Shown here piece after piece: positions 1,156 through 48,406 of a stretch of DNA of 64,000 nt. Every line of letters starts with the position of its first letter. Positions within the stretch are counted from its first letter, which is position 1. Position numbers and translations under genes: made by a program. This stretch comes from Peptococcaceae bacterium BRH_c8a (GTDB taxonomy: Bacteria; Bacillota; Desulfotomaculia; Desulfotomaculales; Desulfallaceae), in contig LADP01000025.1 of the NCBI GenBank assembly GCA_000961575.1, forward strand, positions 62,001 through 126,000, given 5' to 3'. The notes under the pieces are model-generated. The model had not been told where the DNA came from. It made no database searches and saw nothing but the letters and a program-made list of their open reading frames with translations.

Positions 1156-1366
1156 CTACCTTCTCGTCTGTAGCGTAATACATTCTAACTTTTCTTGACA
1201 CGCGAAGCCAAAACCACTATTGGTGAAAATGTTTTTGCAATAACCTGATCCATTGCCGCGGTAACCGCGCCTCAGTAAGGGTATCCTTGGGATTATCCAG
1301 AGAAATGGTAACCCGGCTGCCCGCCTGGTTTACGAAGCGCATCTGTAAAGTCTGCGTAGTGGCCAT
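1156..1366 (-). pseudogene. DUF2922 protein, frameshifted
   Basis: Starts MATTQTLQMRF and continues with NQAGSRVTISLDNPKD, as in DUF2922, a small protein of Firmicutes usually encoded just after DUF1659. After about 30 codons the match moves to another frame (AVTAAMDQVIAK) and then to a third (NIFTNSGFGF), so at least two frameshifts are needed to recover a full-length product ending at 1156. The start at 1366 has AAAGGATG upstream. Either the gene is dead or this stretch has indel errors; nearby genes show the same damage. Its function is not known. Confidence 0.6.
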
Positions 1367-1438
1367 ATCCCAAAACATCCTTTCACGGGTCGGTTATGCC
1401 CGCCTGTTAATTGTCATGTAAGTTAAGCTGCCGAAACA

Positions 1439-1669
1439 TTAGATAACCTCTTCTATTCTGGCGGTGTCAATGCGCAGCACATCCGCGAGGATATATTCCT
1501 GCCAGGCCAGTCAAGGCTTGGGCTACCTCAAAGACATCTTGGTCCAGAGCATCGGTTTTGACGTTACTCAGGTTCTTATTACGAAAAAAAGGGTCGCCAT
1601 TGCCTTCCACCCCGGTTTGAAACTGCAGCCGCAGCGCAGCACCGACGGTTATATATTATTAACTGCCAT
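1439..1669 (-). pseudogene. DUF1659 protein, frameshifted
   Basis: The middle frame reads ALRLQFQTGVEGNGDPFF followed by NVKTDALDQDVFEVAQAL, a clear DUF1659 match. The first codons (MAVNN) and the end (QEYILADVLRIDTARIEEVI) are in other frames, so two indels break it. An AAAGGATG ribosome site precedes the ATG at 1669. It sits directly upstream of the DUF2922 remnant, the normal gene order for this pair. Function unknown. Confidence 0.6.
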
Positions 1670-1757
1670 TATTTCTCATCCTTTCACCGAAGGTTTTAAT
1701 TACACCGGTTGAATTTGCATTTGGCGGCGGAAGTGGCCGGACTACCGCCGCCAAAAA

Positions 1758-1783
1758 ACAAAAAGGCCGGAATCTCCGGCCAA
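1758..1783 (-). terminator. Rho-independent terminator
   Basis: On the minus strand GGCCGG-AGATT-CCGGCC is followed by TTTTTGTTTTTT. It lies 34 bp after the stop of the small gene at 1817-1918. A second 11-bp stem (1720-1730 with 1745-1755) follows. Confidence 0.7.
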
Positions 1784-1816
1784 TTCCACATTAACACTGG
1801 TTATTGCACTGATCAA

Positions 1817-1918
1817 CTATATTTCATTATTATGTGTATTAGTTTCTTCTACTTTTAACAACGCCTGGCTGGCTTCCGACTTGCGCAACGGAACAGTAAA
1901 AGGGACGGTTAAATTCAT
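1817..1918 (-). CDS. Small protein of 33 residues, unknown function
   Basis: ATG at 1918 with GGAGG 7 bases upstream opens a 33-codon frame beginning MNLTVPFTVPLRKSEAS. It ends shortly before a strong terminator on the same strand, which supports real expression. There is no membrane segment or known motif. It lies just upstream of the DUF1659/DUF2922 pair and may belong to the same neighbourhood. I do not recognise it. Confidence 0.5.
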   Translation of the reverse strand: MNLTVPFTVPLRKSEASQALLKVEETNTHNNEI

Positions 1919-1960
1919 ATTCTTGTCCTCCATTTTATATAACTTTTATTATCTTTAGTT

Positions 1961-2686
1961 ATGAATATCACCAAGATTAAAGAAATTGAATTACAGCTGG
2001 CCAAAAGTGAAAAACTTTCCGCCATTGGTGAGATGGCGGCGGGCATGGCCCACGAAATTAGAAACCCCCTTACCACCGTGCGGGGGTTTGTGCAGATGCT
2101 CGACCACAAACACCGGCAAATGGGGATTAGCGATTTCGATGACCAAGTGAACCTGATGTTATCGGAAATCGACCGGGTTAATCAGATTATTAAGGATTTT
2201 TTAAACCTGGCCAAGCCCAAAGGAACACAAATCCAAGCACTGGATATTAACAGCCTGTTAAACGAAGTGGTGATTCTAATGGAGAACGAAGCCCTGCGCC
2301 AGGACATCGAAATTAACAAGGTACTGGCTCACTCACTGCCGCCCGTGGCCGGGGACAAAGACCAGCTAAGCCAGGTTTTTATAAACATGATCAATAATGC
2401 ATTCCAGTCGATGGGGGAAAAAGGTATTCTAACCATCCATGCGTGGCATCGGAGGACCAATCCCGGGTGATTATTGATTTTATTGATGACGGCTCAGGCA
2501 TTTCGAAGGACCTGCTAGATAAAATTTTTTTTTGATCCCTTTGTCAGCACCAAAGAAGAAGGTACTGGCCTGGGATTGGCCATTTCCAACCGCATTATCA
2601 CCGATCATCGCGGAGAGATCAAAGTAACCAGTCAACCCGGGGCGGGGACCACATTTTCAATCATTTTGCCGGCGGACGTAAATTAA
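1961..2686 (+). pseudogene. Sporulation-type histidine kinase fragment, frameshifted
   Basis: Encodes the end of a PAS linker, then a HisKA domain with the phospho-acceptor motif GMAHEIRNPL and a HATPase domain. The first frame ends at 2470. The rest continues in another frame (IIDFIDDGSGIS) and a third (FDPFVSTKEEGTGLGLAIS), ending at 2686. One break is at a run of nine T near 2525-2533, where eight would restore the frame. The sensor region is missing at the N-terminus. A three-way broken, headless kinase is most likely a pseudogene, though indel errors cannot be excluded. Confidence 0.75.
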
Positions 2687-3192
2687 ATCCACTTAATTTA
2701 AGTGCAACTATTTCTTATACGTTAAACAATTCCGGTACTAGTGTCTTGGGAAATGTTAATCTTTTTTTCATTTTTAAGATGATCGTTATATGAAACCACA
2801 TATAACCAAGCCCAGCTTTAAGGTCAATCTTACGGGTCGCGCCTGGTCATGTGTGGCTTTACCGGGCCCTCCATGCCATCACACCGGGGTCTTTATGCAT
2901 GTCGGCCAGAGTGCCGGCAAAGCCGCTTTAGGTTAGGGTCACGGCTTACCGGTCAGGCTTTGGCGACACACTGGCCAGCTTTAGGGTTTATTTAACCCCG
3001 GCCCCCAATCATGGGGGCCGGGGGCTTTTAACGCTGCGCGGCGGATCCTGCAACCGATCACTTGGTTTGTAGTAATTGCTACCTCGGGCGGGACTGCATC
3101 CAGCAGATTGCCGGCTACTGGCAGATACGGGATTATTTTACCCGGGCACACCACGGCCCGGATTTGTAAATACATGGCGGAAGCCATAGACA
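2687..3192. other. Intergenic stretch with one strong hairpin
   Basis: No gene seen. A perfect 11-bp stem, CCCCGGCCCCC at 2996-3006 with GGGGGCCGGGG at 3013-3023, is followed by CTTTT on the plus strand and could end transcription. The rest holds nothing I recognise. Confidence 0.45.
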
Positions 3193-4490
3193 TCAACGCA
3201 TTATATTGAAGTAGTACCACATTAACAGGTATCCCGATGAAATTAATATAGATAAAATCATTAACGGAAAGGCAACTTTCATGAAATCAATAAAGCTTAT
3301 ATGAATGCCCCTTTTTTCCGCCATACCGATAACCACAACGTTAGCCGACGCACCTATGGCCGTTCCATTACCGCCAAGGCAGGAGCCCAGGGACAGGGAC
3401 CACCAGAGAAAATCTAGGTCCTGAATTCCCCCAAGGCGGCCCATATCCTGAATTAGGGGGATCATAGCCGCAACAAAGGGTATGTTGTCGACAAAGGCGG
3501 ATAAAATGGCGGATAGCCACAGGATTATTAGCGCTGTGGGTAAAATATTGCCGCCTGTTATATTAAGGCCAATCCCGGCCATTTTCTCGAATAAGCCGGT
3601 TTGTTCCATCGCACCGATTATAATAAATAGGCTGATAAAGAATATAATCACGGACCATTCAACATATTTTAAAGCCCTTATTAAGTTACTTTTTGATATG
3701 AAGGTCAGTATACAGGCCCCGAGCGTAGCGATAAAGGCCGGTTCCAGCCTGATTTGCCGGTGTATAACAAAGCCTAGAACGGTTATAAAAATTACACTGC
3801 CAGGCATTTGCGGAGTAATGCCCTGTCGTTAAGCTCGTCCACCGCTTTTAGACTCATCAGACGCATTTGAAGTCCCGAAAAAGTTTCTATTTGATGCCTG
3901 TAAATTAACTTAATAACCGATATGATAACTATGTAAATAACCAATACGACAGGCAATAAATTACCAACGAAATCTATAAAACCAAGGCCCGTAAAACCGC
4001 TAATCATGATATTCGGCGGGTCGCCGACTAGCGTAGCGGTACCGCCGATATTTGATGCAATAATAATGGCCATTAAAAAAGGTACCGGGCTTATCCTTAG
4101 CTGTTGAGTGATGGCGAAGGTGACGGGAATAATCAGCATCACCGTGGTTACATTATCCAAAAATGCTGAAAGAACAGCCGTTATCAGGCATAGCGAGGCC
4201 AATATTCTAATCGGTTCTCCCTTGACCTTTTGGGCTGCCTTGATGGCCAGAAATTCAAATAATCCTGTTCTTCTGGTAATGCCTACTATGATCATCATGC
4301 CGGTCAGCAATCCAACGGTATCAAAGTCAATCGAACTGAACGCCTGGGCCGGCTTTACCACCCCCAGTGCAAGAAATAATACAGCGCCGACGAGAGCGGC
4401 CGCAGTCCGGTGCACCAGCCCGAAAATGATTAAAATATATGTACATATAAAAATTGTTATAGCCAGGTGCAATTCTATACTTCCTTCCAC
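3193..4490 (-). pseudogene. ArsB/NhaD-type anion permease, split by a frameshift
   Basis: Two adjacent frames make one membrane permease of the ion-transporter superfamily (ArsB, NhaD, CitT relatives). The N-terminal half (4490-3792) holds DNVTTVMLIIPV and GGTATLVGDPPNIMI; the C-terminal half (3807-3193) holds DNIPFVAAMIPL and NGTAIGASANVV, the paired half-repeats of the family. Together they give about 430 residues, the normal size. The break falls at CGC-AAA-TGC near 3800; one extra A would join the frames. The substrate cannot be read from sequence. It may be inactive, or the break may be an error. Confidence 0.75.
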
Positions 4491-23945: not shown

Positions 23946-24593
23946 TTATCTATGTATAGCTTGTTTAGTTTTGTTGCGGTACATGGTTTCATCAGCCCGG
24001 CACAATAACACATTCGCTGTTTGCCCATCTTCCGGGTACACCGAAATGCCTGCCGAGATGCCTAATGGATATTTGTTGACCTGCTGCGCAACTGTTTTTT
24101 TAATTCTCTGTACCAGGCCGGCGCTTTGTGCTCTTGTTAAACCCGGACATAAAATCACAAACTCGTCCCCGCCAATACGGCCGACTACATCGGTGGAGCG
24201 GACATTGGATGCAATTGTGTTGGAAATAATCTGCAAGGCGTAGTCCCCTTGCTCATGCCCGTACCGGTCATTGATTTGCTTGAACTTATCCACGTCAATA
24301 AATATTATAGATAGCATTGCACCGCTTTTATCAGCATGCGCAAGGTGCCTGTGCAGCATCTGAATCAGCATTCTGCGGTTGACCGCACCGGTTAGCGTAT
24401 CAAAACTGGCCAGGTGGTTGATACGGTCATAAGTATAACCAATCCAAAGTCCAATGGGAATATAAAGCAAAGACAACACATAAATTGGCCACATTGACGG
24501 CAACAGGTAGCAGAAAGTGATGCAAACAACTGCCGCTGCCAATCCGGTTAATGCACCATATATCTTGCCTTTGTTCCTTTGATTTATTTTCAT
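23946..24593 (-). CDS. Membrane diguanylate cyclase (GGDEF)
   Basis: About 215 residues. Two membrane helices at the N-terminus lead directly into a full GGDEF domain: DTLTGAVNRRML, FIDVDKFKQINDRYGHEQGD and the active-site RIGGDEF. It should make cyclic di-GMP from two GTP. There is no sensor domain beyond the short membrane part. ATG 24593 lies seven bases after GGGGG. A c-di-GMP riboswitch lies at 46962, so this gene is one possible source of its ligand. Whether an RxxD inhibitory site is present was not resolved. Confidence 0.85.
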   Translation of the reverse strand: MKINQRNKGKIYGALTGLAAAVVCITFCYLLPSMWPIYVLSLLYIPIGLWIGYTYDRINHLASFDTLTGAVNRRMLIQMLHRHLAHADKSGAMLSIIFIDVDKFKQINDRYGHEQGDYALQIISNTIASNVRSTDVVGRIGGDEFVILCPGLTRAQSAGLVQRIKKTVAQQVNKYPLGISAGISVYPEDGQTANVLLCRADETMYRNKTKQAIHR

Positions 24594-24743
24594 AACCAAG
24601 CCCCCGAAAAAATAATTTTAAGAAATTAATCAGATTGTTTTTCAGTTGGTAGTAAAGATTTACTCCCAATGCATGTTCTTCATAATTCGACAATTTCCTG
24701 CAACCACCAGCTGTCATAGTGGATGGGTTAGAAAAAGTAAAAA

Positions 24744-38896: not shown

Positions 38897-39086
38897 AGTA
38901 AAATCGTAACAATAATAATACTCAGGAGTTATGCAGTTGATGTAAATTAGTACCAAATACACAACTCCAAAAAATATTTTAAACTAGGCACCATATTTAA
39001 CCAAAATAACTTGACATTTAAGAAACAGCCCCATAATCGCAGTGGATGGCATTTTTTGTCATCACTCTGGCGATATGGGTGATACA

Positions 39087-40200
39087 ATGAAAAAACTGTG
39101 CAAACCAACCTTCGAGAAAAAGGATCACGGTCGAGGAGCCGGGATACCGGCACTCAAAACAATCTGGGATTTGTTCGACTTATCCCTCTTGTTCTCCCAA
39201 ACTGGAATCCGTAAACACTCTGGTATTCCAGCATGGCTTCTGGCTTTTGCCTACGTATGCGGGCTGGTGGATAATGCAGGTTCTGCAAATAAGAATGCCA
39301 AGTTTTCAGCGGATGCTCCTTTTTTACAGCAGTTGCTTTCAGGCCGGATGATTTCACAAAGCGCCTTCAGCAGGTTTCTGTCCAAACCTTTTCAGTGGCT
39401 TCAGTTCTCTTTAGGCAGGCTTGCCAGGCTGCAGGAGTGCCCAGAAAGCCGATTGACCGATGGGGACGTAATTGCCTTAGACGATACTAAAGTTGAGCAT
39501 CCCCACGGGAAAAAGCTCCCATTTCTATGCTGGCTCTTTGACAGCTCTGATAAACGCCATGTATGGTGCATGAATCTGGTGTCGACTATGGCTGTTCTTA
39601 AGAACGGCCTCGAATATCCGATGCTATGGCGCTTTTGGGTTAAAATCGGTCAGGAGAATGGAAAGCAAACCAAGCTTGATCTTGCCAAACAGATGCTTTC
39701 AGAGTTTCGTCAAATTAATAACGCCAAGCTTTGGGTTGCCATGGATCGCTGGTTTCTGTGCAAGAAGTTCCTCGTTTGGCTTGCTGATCAGGACTTTGAC
39801 TGGGTTACTAAGGCCAAGAGGAACACTGTCCTGTTCCGGAAAATTTACGACCCCGGGCAACGTAAGGAAATTTACGTAAAGCTAAACCCGAAACAGCTGC
39901 TTCGAGAGGTATACCCCAGGCTTCAGATACTGGGTAACGGTTCCGTATTAAGCATCCCGGATATTTACATCAAGCTTCCTTTTGAAACGTTTACCCGTAA
40001 GGGCAAACCTATCACCCGGCAACGTCTCGTACCTATTGCGGCCATTGCAGCAACCTATGCTAAGCAGGTACCGGAAACGAGTATCCTGCTCCCGGAAGAG
40101 GAACTTCCGGCAACCTTCAAGGATGTGTACCTTCTCATCAGTAATCGCGTTGATGCACCAGAAGATGCAGCAAAAACCTATACCAAACGGTGGAGAATTG
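39087..40200 (+). pseudogene. DDE transposase of the IS, exon 1
   Basis: The first part of an IS4-superfamily DDE transposase, about 371 codons from ATG 39087. Catalytic features: VIALDDTKVEHPHGKKLP with the first Asp, AMDRWFLCKKFLVWL with the second, and YTKRWRI where the third block (normally with Glu) begins. The open frame runs only a few codons into the intron. The last block continues at 42169, where VFYRTVKQNLG completes the Glu-containing helix. Splicing of the intron would restore it. Confidence 0.8.
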
Positions 40201-40715
40201 GCGTGTCCAGCTAAGGACACAGAATCTAGTCGGTGCAAGTCCGACCGGGAGAAGAGACTTCCCTCCCGTAGCCTGAGAGGCACCGTGGAGTGAAAGCGAG
40301 ACGGTGAAGCCCTCTGACAACACGCTCTAGGAGCGTGGGCAAAATTCCAGGTTGTAACGCACAGTGAACGCAGACGTAGCCTCGTTACACGCAAATCCGG
40401 TGGCTGAGACGGTCGATAACGCGCGAAAGCAACAAGTACTGATCGAAAGAGTCTGAAACGGCAGTACTCACCGGCGGGGTATCAGCGGCGACATGGAGTG
40501 AAAGATGTTGTGGAAACTGGAGAAGCCCTCGACACCCGGTGAAGAAATCTCATCGAGGAGGCCGTCCCTATAACCGTGATCGGGAAATGGGAAAGGCAGG
40601 TGTCAGGGTGGCGGAACGGATCGTAGTACCGTAGATCCGCGTGCAGCAAAACGCGCGGGGAGGAAAGGGTCCGAACCTGTAAACACTTCGTACGACCGAG
40701 GGAGGCAAGGGTGCT

Positions 40716-42023
40716 TTGACAACAACACCCATAAGTTTGCAGGAACTTAGGCGGCGAATATATCAAAAGGCGAAGTCTGAACCTACACATCGGTTTTGGG
40801 GATTATTTACCCACATTACCAAGATGATAACCCTTCATGAAGCATATCAACGAGCGAAGAAAAACGGCGGTGCCCCGGGCATTGACGGACAAAGCTTCGC
40901 CGATGTGGAAAAAGAGGGAGTCATCCCGTTTCTAAAAAGCATCCAGGCAGAACTGCATGCTGGGACATACCGACCACAAGCCAACCGTAAAGTTGATATC
41001 CCGAAAGCAAACGGTAAAATGCGAACCTTACAAATACCGAGCATCCGGGACCGAGTGGTGCAAGGGGCCCTGAAAATCATACTGGAAGCCATCTTTGAGG
41101 CTGACTTCTGTTCAAACTCATATGGATTCCGCCCGAAGCGCTCCCCGCATCAAGCACTGGCAGGAGTACGACGCAGTGTATTGCGACGTATGACAACAGT
41201 GATAGATGTTGATTTGTCCCGCTACTTTGATACGATACGGCACAGCGTACTACTGGAGAAAATAGCCAAACGTGTGACTGACCCGCAAGTCATGCACCTC
41301 GTAAAACAGGTAATCAAGGCAACAGGAAGAATCGGTGTTCCGCAAGGGGGCCCGTTTTCACCACTGGCTGCCAATATTTACCTAAATGAGGTTGACTGGA
41401 CATTCGATGCCATCCGGTGCAAAACAGCGGAAGGCAACTACGAGGCGGTGAACTATCATCGGTTTGCCGATGATATGGTGATTACAATAAGCGGACACTC
41501 CAGCAAACGCGGATGGGCTAAACGGGCACTGCAGCGACTGCAGGAACAACTGGAACCCTTGGGAGTTGAACTCAATCTAGATAAAACCCGAATGGTCAAC
41601 GTCCTAAAGGGCGAATCATTCTCCTTTCTGGGGTTTGATTTGAGGCGAGTACAGAACCGAAGCAAAACCGGATACTTCATCCTTATGACACCGAAAAAGA
41701 AAGCCCGTACTGCTGTCAAAGAGCGAATCCGCGAATTAATTAAAAGTGGAGGCGCAAAACCAGCAAAGGACATTGTTAAACAAGTCAATGCCATATTATC
41801 TGGATGGGTTAATTACTTTCGGGTCGGGAACTCAAGCCGTGCATTCAGCGAAGTGCGCGACTATACGGAGATGAAAATCCGAACTCTGCTGACAAGACGG
41901 AAACGGAGACAAAAGCGTAGTATCGGATGGCGGAGATGGAGTAATGAGTATATCTATAACGTTTTGGGTCTTTACTGGGACTGGAAAGTCCATCCGCTTA
42001 AAAACGCAGAGAAATACCAATGA
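40716..42023 (+). CDS. Group II intron reverse transcriptase/maturase
   Basis: A 435-residue intron-encoded protein. Reverse transcriptase blocks include PGIDGQSF, FRPKRSPHQAL, VIDVDLSRYFDTI, GVPQGGPFSPLAANIYL and the active site RFADDMVI (FADD form of YADD). The maturase domain X follows (IRELIKSGGAK, SGWVNYFRVGNSSRAF). There is no H-N-H endonuclease domain at the end, so mobility may use replication forks. The start is TTG 40716 with GGGAGG eight bases upstream. It is complete. Confidence 0.9.
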   Translation: MTTTPISLQELRRRIYQKAKSEPTHRFWGLFTHITKMITLHEAYQRAKKNGGAPGIDGQSFADVEKEGVIPFLKSIQAELHAGTYRPQANRKVDIPKANGKMRTLQIPSIRDRVVQGALKIILEAIFEADFCSNSYGFRPKRSPHQALAGVRRSVLRRMTTVIDVDLSRYFDTIRHSVLLEKIAKRVTDPQVMHLVKQVIKATGRIGVPQGGPFSPLAANIYLNEVDWTFDAIRCKTAEGNYEAVNYHRFADDMVITISGHSSKRGWAKRALQRLQEQLEPLGVELNLDKTRMVNVLKGESFSFLGFDLRRVQNRSKTGYFILMTPKKKARTAVKERIRELIKSGGAKPAKDIVKQVNAILSGWVNYFRVGNSSRAFSEVRDYTEMKIRTLLTRRKRRQKRSIGWRRWSNEYIYNVLGLYWDWKVHPLKNAEKYQ

Positions 42024-45774: not shown

Positions 45775-46571
45775 ACAAAATGATGGCCAATAAAGGCTAC
45801 AGTAATAGTAAACCCTGCTGATTAAGCATTTAAAACGATTAAAATAGGTTTATTAATTTTAAATTGTGGTATTTACTATTGAGGTACCTTTTGCAGTAAC
45901 TTCTACCGATTCTATTAGGGTTTTACCTTAATTGAAGGCGTCCCAACTCAGCGTTTTCCACTTAGTCGTAGTCGTCTACAATACTGATGGCTACTTTGGC
46001 CACCGAATTCGGTATTGGCTGTAGCTTTACATCGGACGATGGTACGCACATGCGACTGACTGATGCTGACAATACGGTTTTTTATCTTGCTGGGAAAAAA
46101 ACTTACATATCGTTCCCGATGCTGTTCCATGGGATTATATTCATCATTTTTTTGTCTGGGATAGATATCAATTTTTGTGGGGAATTTGAGGATGTTACGC
46201 TACATCCTGCTAAGACTAAAGTAAAATAATAAATATAATTATACTTTTACTCATAACGAAACATCCTTTAAAGCAAGTTTCTCTTTAAATATTGACGTTA
46301 AATAATAATTAAAAGTTCCAACATAAGCAAATCATGGCATAAAATAGACGCCATTAGAAAAGCCCGCATTGCCTCGTAGTAAAGGGTAAACTGGCTTAAA
46401 ACTGATGAACAGTATGTTTATGATGTGAATTAGCTAAAAAATGCGTCAAGGAGTATAAGAGAAAAATTGTAATAGGTTACTGCTAGTAAATTCTGTAAAC
46501 AGGTGGATTGCTAACAAACTTTTAAACTTACCATATTCCCAGCGGAGCTTTATCTGTTTTTATTTATATTG
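45775..46571. other. Stretch without a supported gene
   Basis: Short frames on both strands (for example plus 45987-46229) lack ribosome sites and known motifs. I see nothing I can name. Confidence 0.3.
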
Positions 46572-46865
46572 TTATACAGCAATATTTTTCATTGCCATAA
46601 GCTGGATGTCGTGATTAATACTTTCATTAACCTTGCGTAATGAATCCATTGTAATTGATAACAGTTTTGCATAGTTGTCCGGCCTAACAAAACTTGCTTT
46701 AGCCGCCAAAAACTCAGCATCTGTTAAAACATATTGAGGTTCAATATCATTTAAAGTCATTGCAAGCGCCCTGGCCTTACATATTTCACACTTACAGTAC
46801 CCATAATCCTCAATTAGCTTTTCCATTATTTCTTTAACTGCTATTTCTACATAATTAACGACCAT
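46572..46865 (-). CDS. ComFB-family protein under c-di-GMP riboswitch control
   Basis: A 97-residue helical protein with the ComFB plan: MVVNYVEIAVKEIMEKLI, then the Cys pair in YCKCEICKARALAMTLNDIE and PQYVLTDAEF. ComFB relatives have been reported to bind cyclic di-nucleotides, c-di-GMP in cyanobacterial CdgR. AGAGGG lies upstream of ATG 46865. The leader carries a c-di-GMP-I riboswitch and a terminator, so both the RNA and perhaps the protein answer to the same messenger. I recall the family role; the binding by this protein is inferred. Confidence 0.75.
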   Translation of the reverse strand: MVVNYVEIAVKEIMEKLIEDYGYCKCEICKARALAMTLNDIEPQYVLTDAEFLAAKASFVRPDNYAKLLSITMDSLRKVNESINHDIQLMAMKNIAV

Positions 46866-46900
46866 AATAGAGCCCTCTTTTCTGATTAATTGTTTGTTAT

Positions 46901-46936
46901 TAAAAAAAAGAAAACGGCCATGTAACCATAGGCCGC
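46901..46936 (-). terminator. Expression-platform terminator of the riboswitch
   Basis: On the minus strand CGGCC and GGCCG pair across an 11-base loop, followed by TTTTCTTTTTTTT. It lies between the riboswitch aptamer and the ComFB start. Confidence 0.75.
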
Positions 46937-46961
46937 TTAATAATCCATTAGTTCATTATAT

Positions 46962-47042
46962 AAGCAACCTGGCAGCCATAGCTTAAAAGCTTTAGGCCCA
47001 TAGCTTTGCGTCCCGGTCTTTCGACCGGTTTGCCCGATTTTT
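46962..47042 (-). promoter_or_regulatory. Cyclic di-GMP-I riboswitch (GEMM) aptamer
   Basis: The minus strand shows the consensus in order: GGGCAAACC, a stem capped by GAAA (CCGGTCGAAAGACCGG), GGGACGCAAAGC, GGGCCTAAAG with the tetraloop receptor, then GGCTGCCAGGTTGC closing P1. This is the GEMM-I aptamer that binds c-di-GMP. It lies about 100 bp upstream of the ComFB gene with a terminator in between. Whether ligand turns the gene on or off cannot be told by eye. Confidence 0.9.
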
Positions 47043-47116
47043 TTACTTAAGCAGTTCATATTAATCTGTTAAGAAGGAGCTATCATATTTCGGCTTCCAA
47101 GAATTATCTTTCTTCA

Positions 47117-47143
47117 TCGAATAAAGATTTTAATTTTATTCGA
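47117..47143. repeat. Inverted repeat in the riboswitch promoter region
   Basis: TCGAATAAA and TTTATTCGA flank a 9-base centre. It may be an operator or a weak terminator between the divergent riboswitch-ComFB unit and the gene at 47406. The rest of 47043-47405 shows nothing. Confidence 0.35.
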
Positions 47144-47405
47144 CATTTTCCTACAATATTCCTCCTAAAAGATTTGCATTAGGTTACTAAATTAGTTTAA
47201 GCAATTTCACCAGTTCCGGTCTACCTTTAACGGTCAAGGATAAAAATATATATTTAACCTTATAATTTATCCAGAGTTGAATAAATTTTTTGCTGTACAG
47301 TACAAAGATTAGATACAACATCCAAAACTACAATTAAGGGAATTTGAAAACTATGATAAAATAATTACTAAGTTTAACTCATGAATTATTGAAAGGACTG
47401 AGCTT

Positions 47406-47966
47406 GTGTATTCTTTCGGGAGAAAAATATTTTTTGTTGGGCCAACCTTTATTGCAGTTATGGTTTTACTCTTCTTTGTTTTCTCTGATCCTAACAATGA
47501 TACTCAAGAAATACAAAAAGCAATTCAGGAATCAATTATGGAATCAAATACACACGTGGAAAAAGTAGTTCACATAGAGAAAGTGGAAAATGTAACATTG
47601 GCGTTTTACGCGACCCCGAAAGGCTTGGCAGTTGGGAGACTTGAACAGACATTTAGGGGTTGGGAATTGATTGAAGGTACTGGGTATATAGAATTTAACT
47701 CCGGAAGTGAATTGCCATGGATTTGGTGTAATATGGGGGAATCAGCAAAATCGCTTCCTGTTTATTACGGTATTGTTTCGAATCCAAATATACAACGTGT
47801 GGAAGTTGACGAGAAACACGAAGCAGAAATTATTGCTACATACAAAGACAATAAAATTTGGACCCTAATCGGACAGGGAACTTCGGGGACAGAAGAAATC
47901 CAAGGGATGACGAACCAAGGAGAAGTTATTTATAGTCGTTTAAATTATAGTAAATCCTTGAGGTAA
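47406..47966 (+). CDS. Membrane-anchored extracytoplasmic protein, unknown
   Basis: 186 residues. One N-terminal membrane helix (IFFVGPTFIAVMVLLFFVF) and an outside beta-rich part (NVTLAFYATPKGLAVGRLEQ, GWELIEGTGYIEFN, WTLIGQGTSGTEEIQG). GTG 47406 with AAAGGA upstream. Similar hypothetical proteins are common in Firmicutes but I know no function. Confidence 0.65.
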   Translation: MYSFGRKIFFVGPTFIAVMVLLFFVFSDPNNDTQEIQKAIQESIMESNTHVEKVVHIEKVENVTLAFYATPKGLAVGRLEQTFRGWELIEGTGYIEFNSGSELPWIWCNMGESAKSLPVYYGIVSNPNIQRVEVDEKHEAEIIATYKDNKIWTLIGQGTSGTEEIQGMTNQGEVIYSRLNYSKSLR

Positions 47967-48033
47967 AGGGTAAGCGAGCTTAACAACTTGTTAAACAGTT
48001 TATTTATTATGTGCCATAAAGGAATTTCGTAGA

Positions 48034-48245
48034 TTAATTAATTAAGTTTGGGCCACCAAATAGTAAACTAGCTAAAATTAGAAGTCTCAAAGCTTGCCAA
48101 TAGGTTACGGGCTTTAAGTTAAATAGCTCTGGTATTGTAGTATTCCAAAGGTACCGCAGTAAGAGGGCTCCCAAAAATAGTAAGCCAGCAACTAAAAATA
48201 TAAATCCCAAGAAATATGAAAAGATATTCCAATAGTATGAAATTA
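48034..48245 (-). pseudogene. Small membrane protein with unclear start
   Basis: The minus strand reads SYYWNIFSYFLGFIFLVAG, then LWNTTIPELFNLKPVTYWQA and LLILASLLFGG, a known small two-helix hypothetical family. A stop lies upstream and no ATG, GTG or TTG is in frame before the first helix, so the start is lost or is a rare ATT. Listed as probably broken. Confidence 0.45.
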
Positions 48246-48406
48246 CTAGGTATAAATCAGTTATGACAGATCAACTCCCTTACTCGCTTTTAACAATTAG
48301 TTCTTTTAGTTTTAACTAAAAACCACCTTTTTAGGGCAAAAACGTTAATTTTATAATGAAATAAAATATGCAATACCCTAACAATAGGTAGAGCTTTCCG
48401 TTTAAA

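Follow-up and report, generated by a model that had tools for sequence, protein, structure and literature searches.

A predicted OFF-type c-di-GMP-I riboswitch ahead of a diverged comFB paralogue

Several described systems bear on the locus reported here. The Cd1 riboswitch of Clostridioides difficile, ahead of the flgB operon, is an OFF switch whose aptamer and terminator can coexist; both compete with an antiterminator, which disrupts the ligand pocket when it forms (PMC9262584). In Vibrio cholerae, the Vc2 GEMM-I riboswitch precedes VC1722, the tfoX homologue tfoY (PMC12564702). The gene comFB itself is known from the comFA-comFC operon of B. subtilis and from association with hfq in cyanobacteria (PMC12313861). 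ComFB proteins have recently been named as receptors for c-di-AMP and c-di-GMP. The Synechocystis protein binds both c-di-AMP (KD 2.6 uM) and c-di-GMP (PMC12313861), and CdgR of Anabaena binds c-di-GMP, is active when free of it, and builds up as its level drops (PMC13075795).

c-di-GMP-I riboswitches and ComFB proteins are thus both of known kinds; their pairing is new to us, and our literature search found no paper joining comFB with a riboswitch. Here, we analyze such a pair in a 64-kb stretch of DNA (the window; G000:C39:62001-126000) from a 4.17-Mb genome that is probably of the Desulfotomaculales type. A first-pass annotation had proposed that a full GEMM-I aptamer and a terminator control a ComFB-like gene, and had suggested an RF01051 search, folding of the leader, and a survey of genomes for such pairs. 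Our results agree with that proposal. We consider it probable (at roughly 0.7) that a Cd1-like OFF-type c-di-GMP-I riboswitch governs transcription of this diverged ComFB paralogue, as judged from sequence and folding models. In an anaerobic Gram-positive lineage, a c-di-GMP riboswitch ahead of a ComFB paralogue would link that paralogue to the messenger, and it offers a system that is easy to test.

Aptamer, expression platform, and gene

The leader contains the only c-di-GMP-I aptamer that Rfam detects in the window. It matches RF01051 far above the gathering score of 35 (E 1.9e-14) and covers the full model from 1 to 87; the motifs GGGCAAACC, a GAAA loop, GACGCAAAGC, and CCUAAAG are read in it where the first-pass annotation had placed them. 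Helix P1 is weak, being AU-rich and mismatched. G11, the A of GACGCAAAG, and C81 are invariant across 27 aligned aptamers, and we take them to be the equivalents of Vc2 G20, A47, and C92, respectively. By these contact residues, the aptamer would be of the c-di-GMP type and not of the cGAMP type.

Table 1. Features of the riboswitch-comFB locus, in window positions
Feature	Position	Strand	Basis
c-di-GMP-I (GEMM-I) riboswitch aptamer	47044..46960	minus	RF01051, 81.4 bits
Predicted antiterminator, 5' strand GCCAGGUUGCUUAUAUAAU, made up of the P3 3' side of the aptamer and the ligand-pairing C	46973..46955	minus	apo MFE
Predicted antiterminator, 3' strand (overlaps terminator 5' arm AAGCGGCC)	46944..46925	minus	folding, comparison
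Intrinsic terminator: AAGCGGCC-AUG hairpin of -14.3 kcal/mol with a U tract after it	46938..46902	minus	sequence, folding
Shine-Dalgarno-like AGAGGG, 7 nt 5' of ATG	46878..46873	minus	sequence
ComFB-family gene, divergent clade, 97 aa, CxCxxC motif	46865..46572	minus	PF10719, 4WAI, 159-sequence alignment

The aptamer is separated from the start codon by approximately 95 nt, which hold a single terminator. Its hairpin is GC-rich and bulged, reading CGGCC-U-AUG-GUUA-CAU-GGCCG and then UUUUCUUUUUUUU over 46935..46902 on the minus strand. A pattern scan for terminators did not catch this hairpin, probably because of the bulge.

The gene product scores 41.6 bits against PF10719 (ComFB; cut-off 25, E 1.3e-10) and matches B. 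subtilis ComFB (4WAI) at E 4.7e-8, which places it within the ComFB family, as first proposed. Its score against the NCBIfam ComFB equivalog NF052654 (42.6) does not reach the cut-off of 120. By sequence, therefore, it is a member of the family and not a Bacillus-type orthologue. In an alignment of 159 ComFB sequences, it keeps CxCxxC, N3, E6, LN, and Y44, and it departs from the family at two nearly invariant positions: R31 replaces a D found in 152 of the 159, and E50 replaces a G found in 153. The family profile reaches the structure of CdgR (8HJA) at E 1e-4; on sequence grounds, we regard the link of ComFB to this proven c-di-GMP receptor as real. An AlphaFold model built from two sequences (pLDDT 52) was too poor for use. 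A search of viral and phage collections yielded no ComFB of this type.

Predicted switching and related leaders

Folding of the leader points to two competing structures. All folding values are for equilibrium, which ignores the order of synthesis. In the apo minimum-free-energy fold, the two antiterminator strands pair at -15.9 kcal/mol, and the apo RNA has a probability of 0.96 for the antiterminator and 0.03 for the terminator. The probability of the terminator is 0.79 when the aptamer fold is forced and 0.98 when the ligand-contact bases are blocked as well; ensemble energies give the same ranking. Judged by itself, this antiterminator is only modestly better than chance, since 88 of 2000 shuffled sequences do as well.

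These folds suggest how the switch might operate. When c-di-GMP is scarce, the 5' arm of the terminator would be taken up in an antiterminator by the aptamer segment that holds the P3 3' strand and the ligand-pairing C (C81), and comFB would be transcribed. At high c-di-GMP, the aptamer would be locked, the terminator would form, and comFB would be turned off. In the models, the antiterminator takes the ligand-pairing C and the terminator is compatible with the aptamer, which is what a Cd1-type switch predicts. OFF polarity is thus probable, as predicted from folding and comparative data.

Closely related leaders, platform included, are present in other genera of the bacterial family, as found by a BLAST search with the leader. 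We compared 13 leaders, that of the window included. All share a layout in which the complementarity between aptamer strand and terminator arm is kept. Their combined complementarity exceeds that of shuffled sequences at p ~2e-9, a value inflated by relatedness. Individual leaders show changes that preserve this pairing; L247 and L248, for example, have U-A for C-G, and L246 has G-C for U-A. In a crude model of the ligand-bound state, the terminator rises clearly in about half of the 13 leaders and does not rise in L239, L243, L245, L246, L250, and L010. Within the aptamer core, a conserved pair also varies, GGC...GCG becoming GGU...GCA (C-G to U-A) in L244, L247, L248, and L250; this is a natural compensatory change.

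The genes 3' of the related leaders are mostly of chemotaxis or c-di-GMP-enzyme type: cheW (PF01584), Cache-type chemotaxis receptors, HD/HD-GYP, and GGDEF genes. By sequence comparison, the comFB leader is therefore most likely a motility-type riboswitch of the ordinary sort that a diverged ComFB paralogue has acquired. An OFF-switch leader of motility or chemotaxis genes would have come to sit before comFB in this lineage and would then have been duplicated together with it.

Distribution and duplication of the pair

Both partners are common. Of 100 relatives, 85 have a c-di-GMP-I riboswitch; ComFB occurs in 70 of 113 class genomes and, in a phylum-wide sample, in 226 of 398. With a model of the 27 aptamers, we searched the DNA on either side of 159 distinct ComFB sequences, drawn from class and phylum; contig ends truncate some of these loci, and the phylum is represented by a sample of best-scoring ComFB genes. 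Among the 159, a riboswitch positioned so that it could control comFB was found only in the window and in a second copy on contig C35 of the same genome. Members of the protein's clade occur in three other genomes of the bacterial family, without the riboswitch. Since we find the pair in a single genome, cross-species conservation cannot serve as evidence.

Other candidates were rejected. In G048 (L038), a GEMM-I riboswitch lies 1.4 kb upstream of comFB, with an oppositely oriented 311-aa ORF between them. In G008, the distance is 1.6 kb, and other ORFs and a terminator-like hairpin intervene. Weak covariance-model matches near comFB in L036, L049, and L017 (14-22 bits) are attributed to chance; Rfam gave no report for them at E 0.1.

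The second copy lies within an 802-bp stretch (46508..47309, minus strand) that recurs at G000:C35:22765-23552 with 95.9% identity. Between the two copies, substitutions number 0 of 135 positions in aptamer and platform, 2 of 294 in the ORF, and 14 of 302 in flank and linker, a contrast between the unit and its flank and linker that is significant (Fisher p 1.7e-4). Both intact ORFs encode 97 aa and differ at one residue. From these sequences, both the riboswitch RNA and the comFB gene look maintained. A third comFB copy, on C12, is a pseudogene and has no leader.

The surroundings have features of their own. On C35, two divergent c-di-GMP-I riboswitches lie within 1.3 kb (L082, G000:C35:20001-40000, 1157-3488): one before an HD-GYP gene approximately 1.2 kb off, the other before the second comFB, with an XRE-type HTH gene between them. 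Segments of window positions 47350-48305, which adjoin the duplicated comFB unit, recur on C35 as well, but about 10 kb away and in changed orientation, a sign of rearrangement. At 40227-42023, right after a transposase-like ORF (39042-40214), is a group II intron (RF02003, 113.8 bits) that carries an ORF for a reverse transcriptase.

Two alternatives to the OFF-switch reading can be weighed against these data. The leader might be a non-functional passenger, moved by duplication or rearrangement beside a decaying ComFB copy and having no regulatory role. The rearranged region, rich in mobile elements, the leaderless pseudogene on C12, and the restriction of the pairing to one genome are all in keeping with this. 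The excess conservation of aptamer, platform, and ORF between the two copies argues against it, as do their near-identical intact ORFs, and we consider it unlikely. Slightly less probable still is an ON switch, in which the ligand would block termination and c-di-GMP would induce comFB. Both polarities occur among GEMM-I type aptamers (PMC9262584), and biofilm-linked genes elsewhere are often induced, but in the window leader the aptamer and the terminator do not overlap, and the main competing fold joins an aptamer strand to the terminator arm. Riboswitch control of the ComFB-family gene as such is supported by where the leader lies, by its folding, by the comparison of platforms, and by what the two paralogues have conserved.

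c-di-GMP signaling and comparison with known systems

The genome has 16 RF01051 matches, 18 GGDEF domains, and 1 PilZ, 2 DAC, and 1 ComEC match, so that the premises for both c-di-GMP and c-di-AMP signaling are in place; PF10719 is found at five places, one of them the pseudogene. The GEMM-I riboswitches precede flgB-type, HD-GYP, GGDEF, Cache-HAMP, MshEN-T2SSE pilus-type ATPase, and surface-protein genes, which together form a classic motility and surface regulon. Under an OFF switch, ComFB would be produced when c-di-GMP is low and the cell is motile, at the same time as flagellar, chemotaxis, and pilus functions; we infer that this is the state in which it is wanted, and that its role lies in pili, DNA uptake, or motility. 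The GGDEF enzyme noted in the first pass at 23946 is real (24599..23946, minus strand; PF00990, 142 bits), but it is not linked to the comFB unit, being 22 kb away and one of 18.

Other riboswitch loci in this genome are of interest in themselves. Tandem c-di-GMP-I aptamers, each with its own terminator, lie before a secreted transglutaminase-like gene (L002/L009, G000:C44:160683-160935). At L014 (G000:C27), the ORF at 1725 encodes a pilus-type ATPase with an MshEN domain behind a c-di-GMP-I riboswitch. MshEN is a domain family known to bind c-di-GMP, so both RNA and protein may read the messenger there. Given this protein and the c-di-GMP enzymes under GEMM-I control in the same genome, double reading of the messenger at comFB would not be a new principle.

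We know of no c-di-GMP-making or -breaking activity in ComFB. Feedback by ComFB on c-di-GMP levels is therefore rejected, and the feedback or buffer loop envisaged in the first-pass annotation is not supported. If ComFB does bind c-di-GMP, the wiring would instead be a feed-forward loop, and any buffering would have to come from titration. The idea that one signal is sensed by both RNA and protein is extrapolated from cyanobacterial relatives. A coherent feed-forward loop, in which the RNA would reduce ComFB production when c-di-GMP is high and c-di-GMP or c-di-AMP would also bind to the protein, is a tentative reading to which we give about one chance in four: ligand-free ComFB would climb sharply as c-di-GMP falls, as in CdgR titration in Anabaena. 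Ligand binding by Synechocystis ComFB (PMC12313861), the c-di-GMP-free action and build-up of CdgR when c-di-GMP falls (PMC13075795), the profile match to CdgR, and the MshEN protein under GEMM-I in the same genome speak for this loop. The changes from D to R31 and from G to E50 speak against it, and because they fall at nearly invariant positions, ligand binding by the window protein cannot be assumed. A little more doubtful is the fuller version, in which c-di-GMP would halt synthesis of the ComFB receptor through its mRNA and also titrate the protein, giving a sharp two-step response when c-di-GMP falls, and in which the divergent clade may have altered its choice of ligand.

The OFF-switch reading sets the locus closest to Cd1. 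The two share the aptamer class and, by prediction, a layout in which the antiterminator sequesters the ligand-pairing C (PMC9262584), and the genome has a GEMM-I riboswitch before flgB as well. The target here, however, is a ComFB-family gene and not a flagellar operon, and the polarity is a prediction. Vc2 offers a parallel in that a c-di-GMP-I riboswitch precedes a homologue of a competence regulator (PMC12564702); the TfoX-type regulator is nevertheless unrelated to ComFB, and the species and the expression platform differ. The protein shares the PF10719 domain with B. subtilis ComFB (4WAI) and Synechocystis Slr1970, and its CxCxxC is as in 4WAI, but its gene stands alone behind a riboswitch and its sequence lacks the family D and G at two positions. 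We know of no riboswitch for CdgR of Anabaena. CdgR belongs to the same family by profile (8HJA, E 1e-4) and acts in c-di-GMP signaling, although it has 179 aa as against 97 aa in the window protein.
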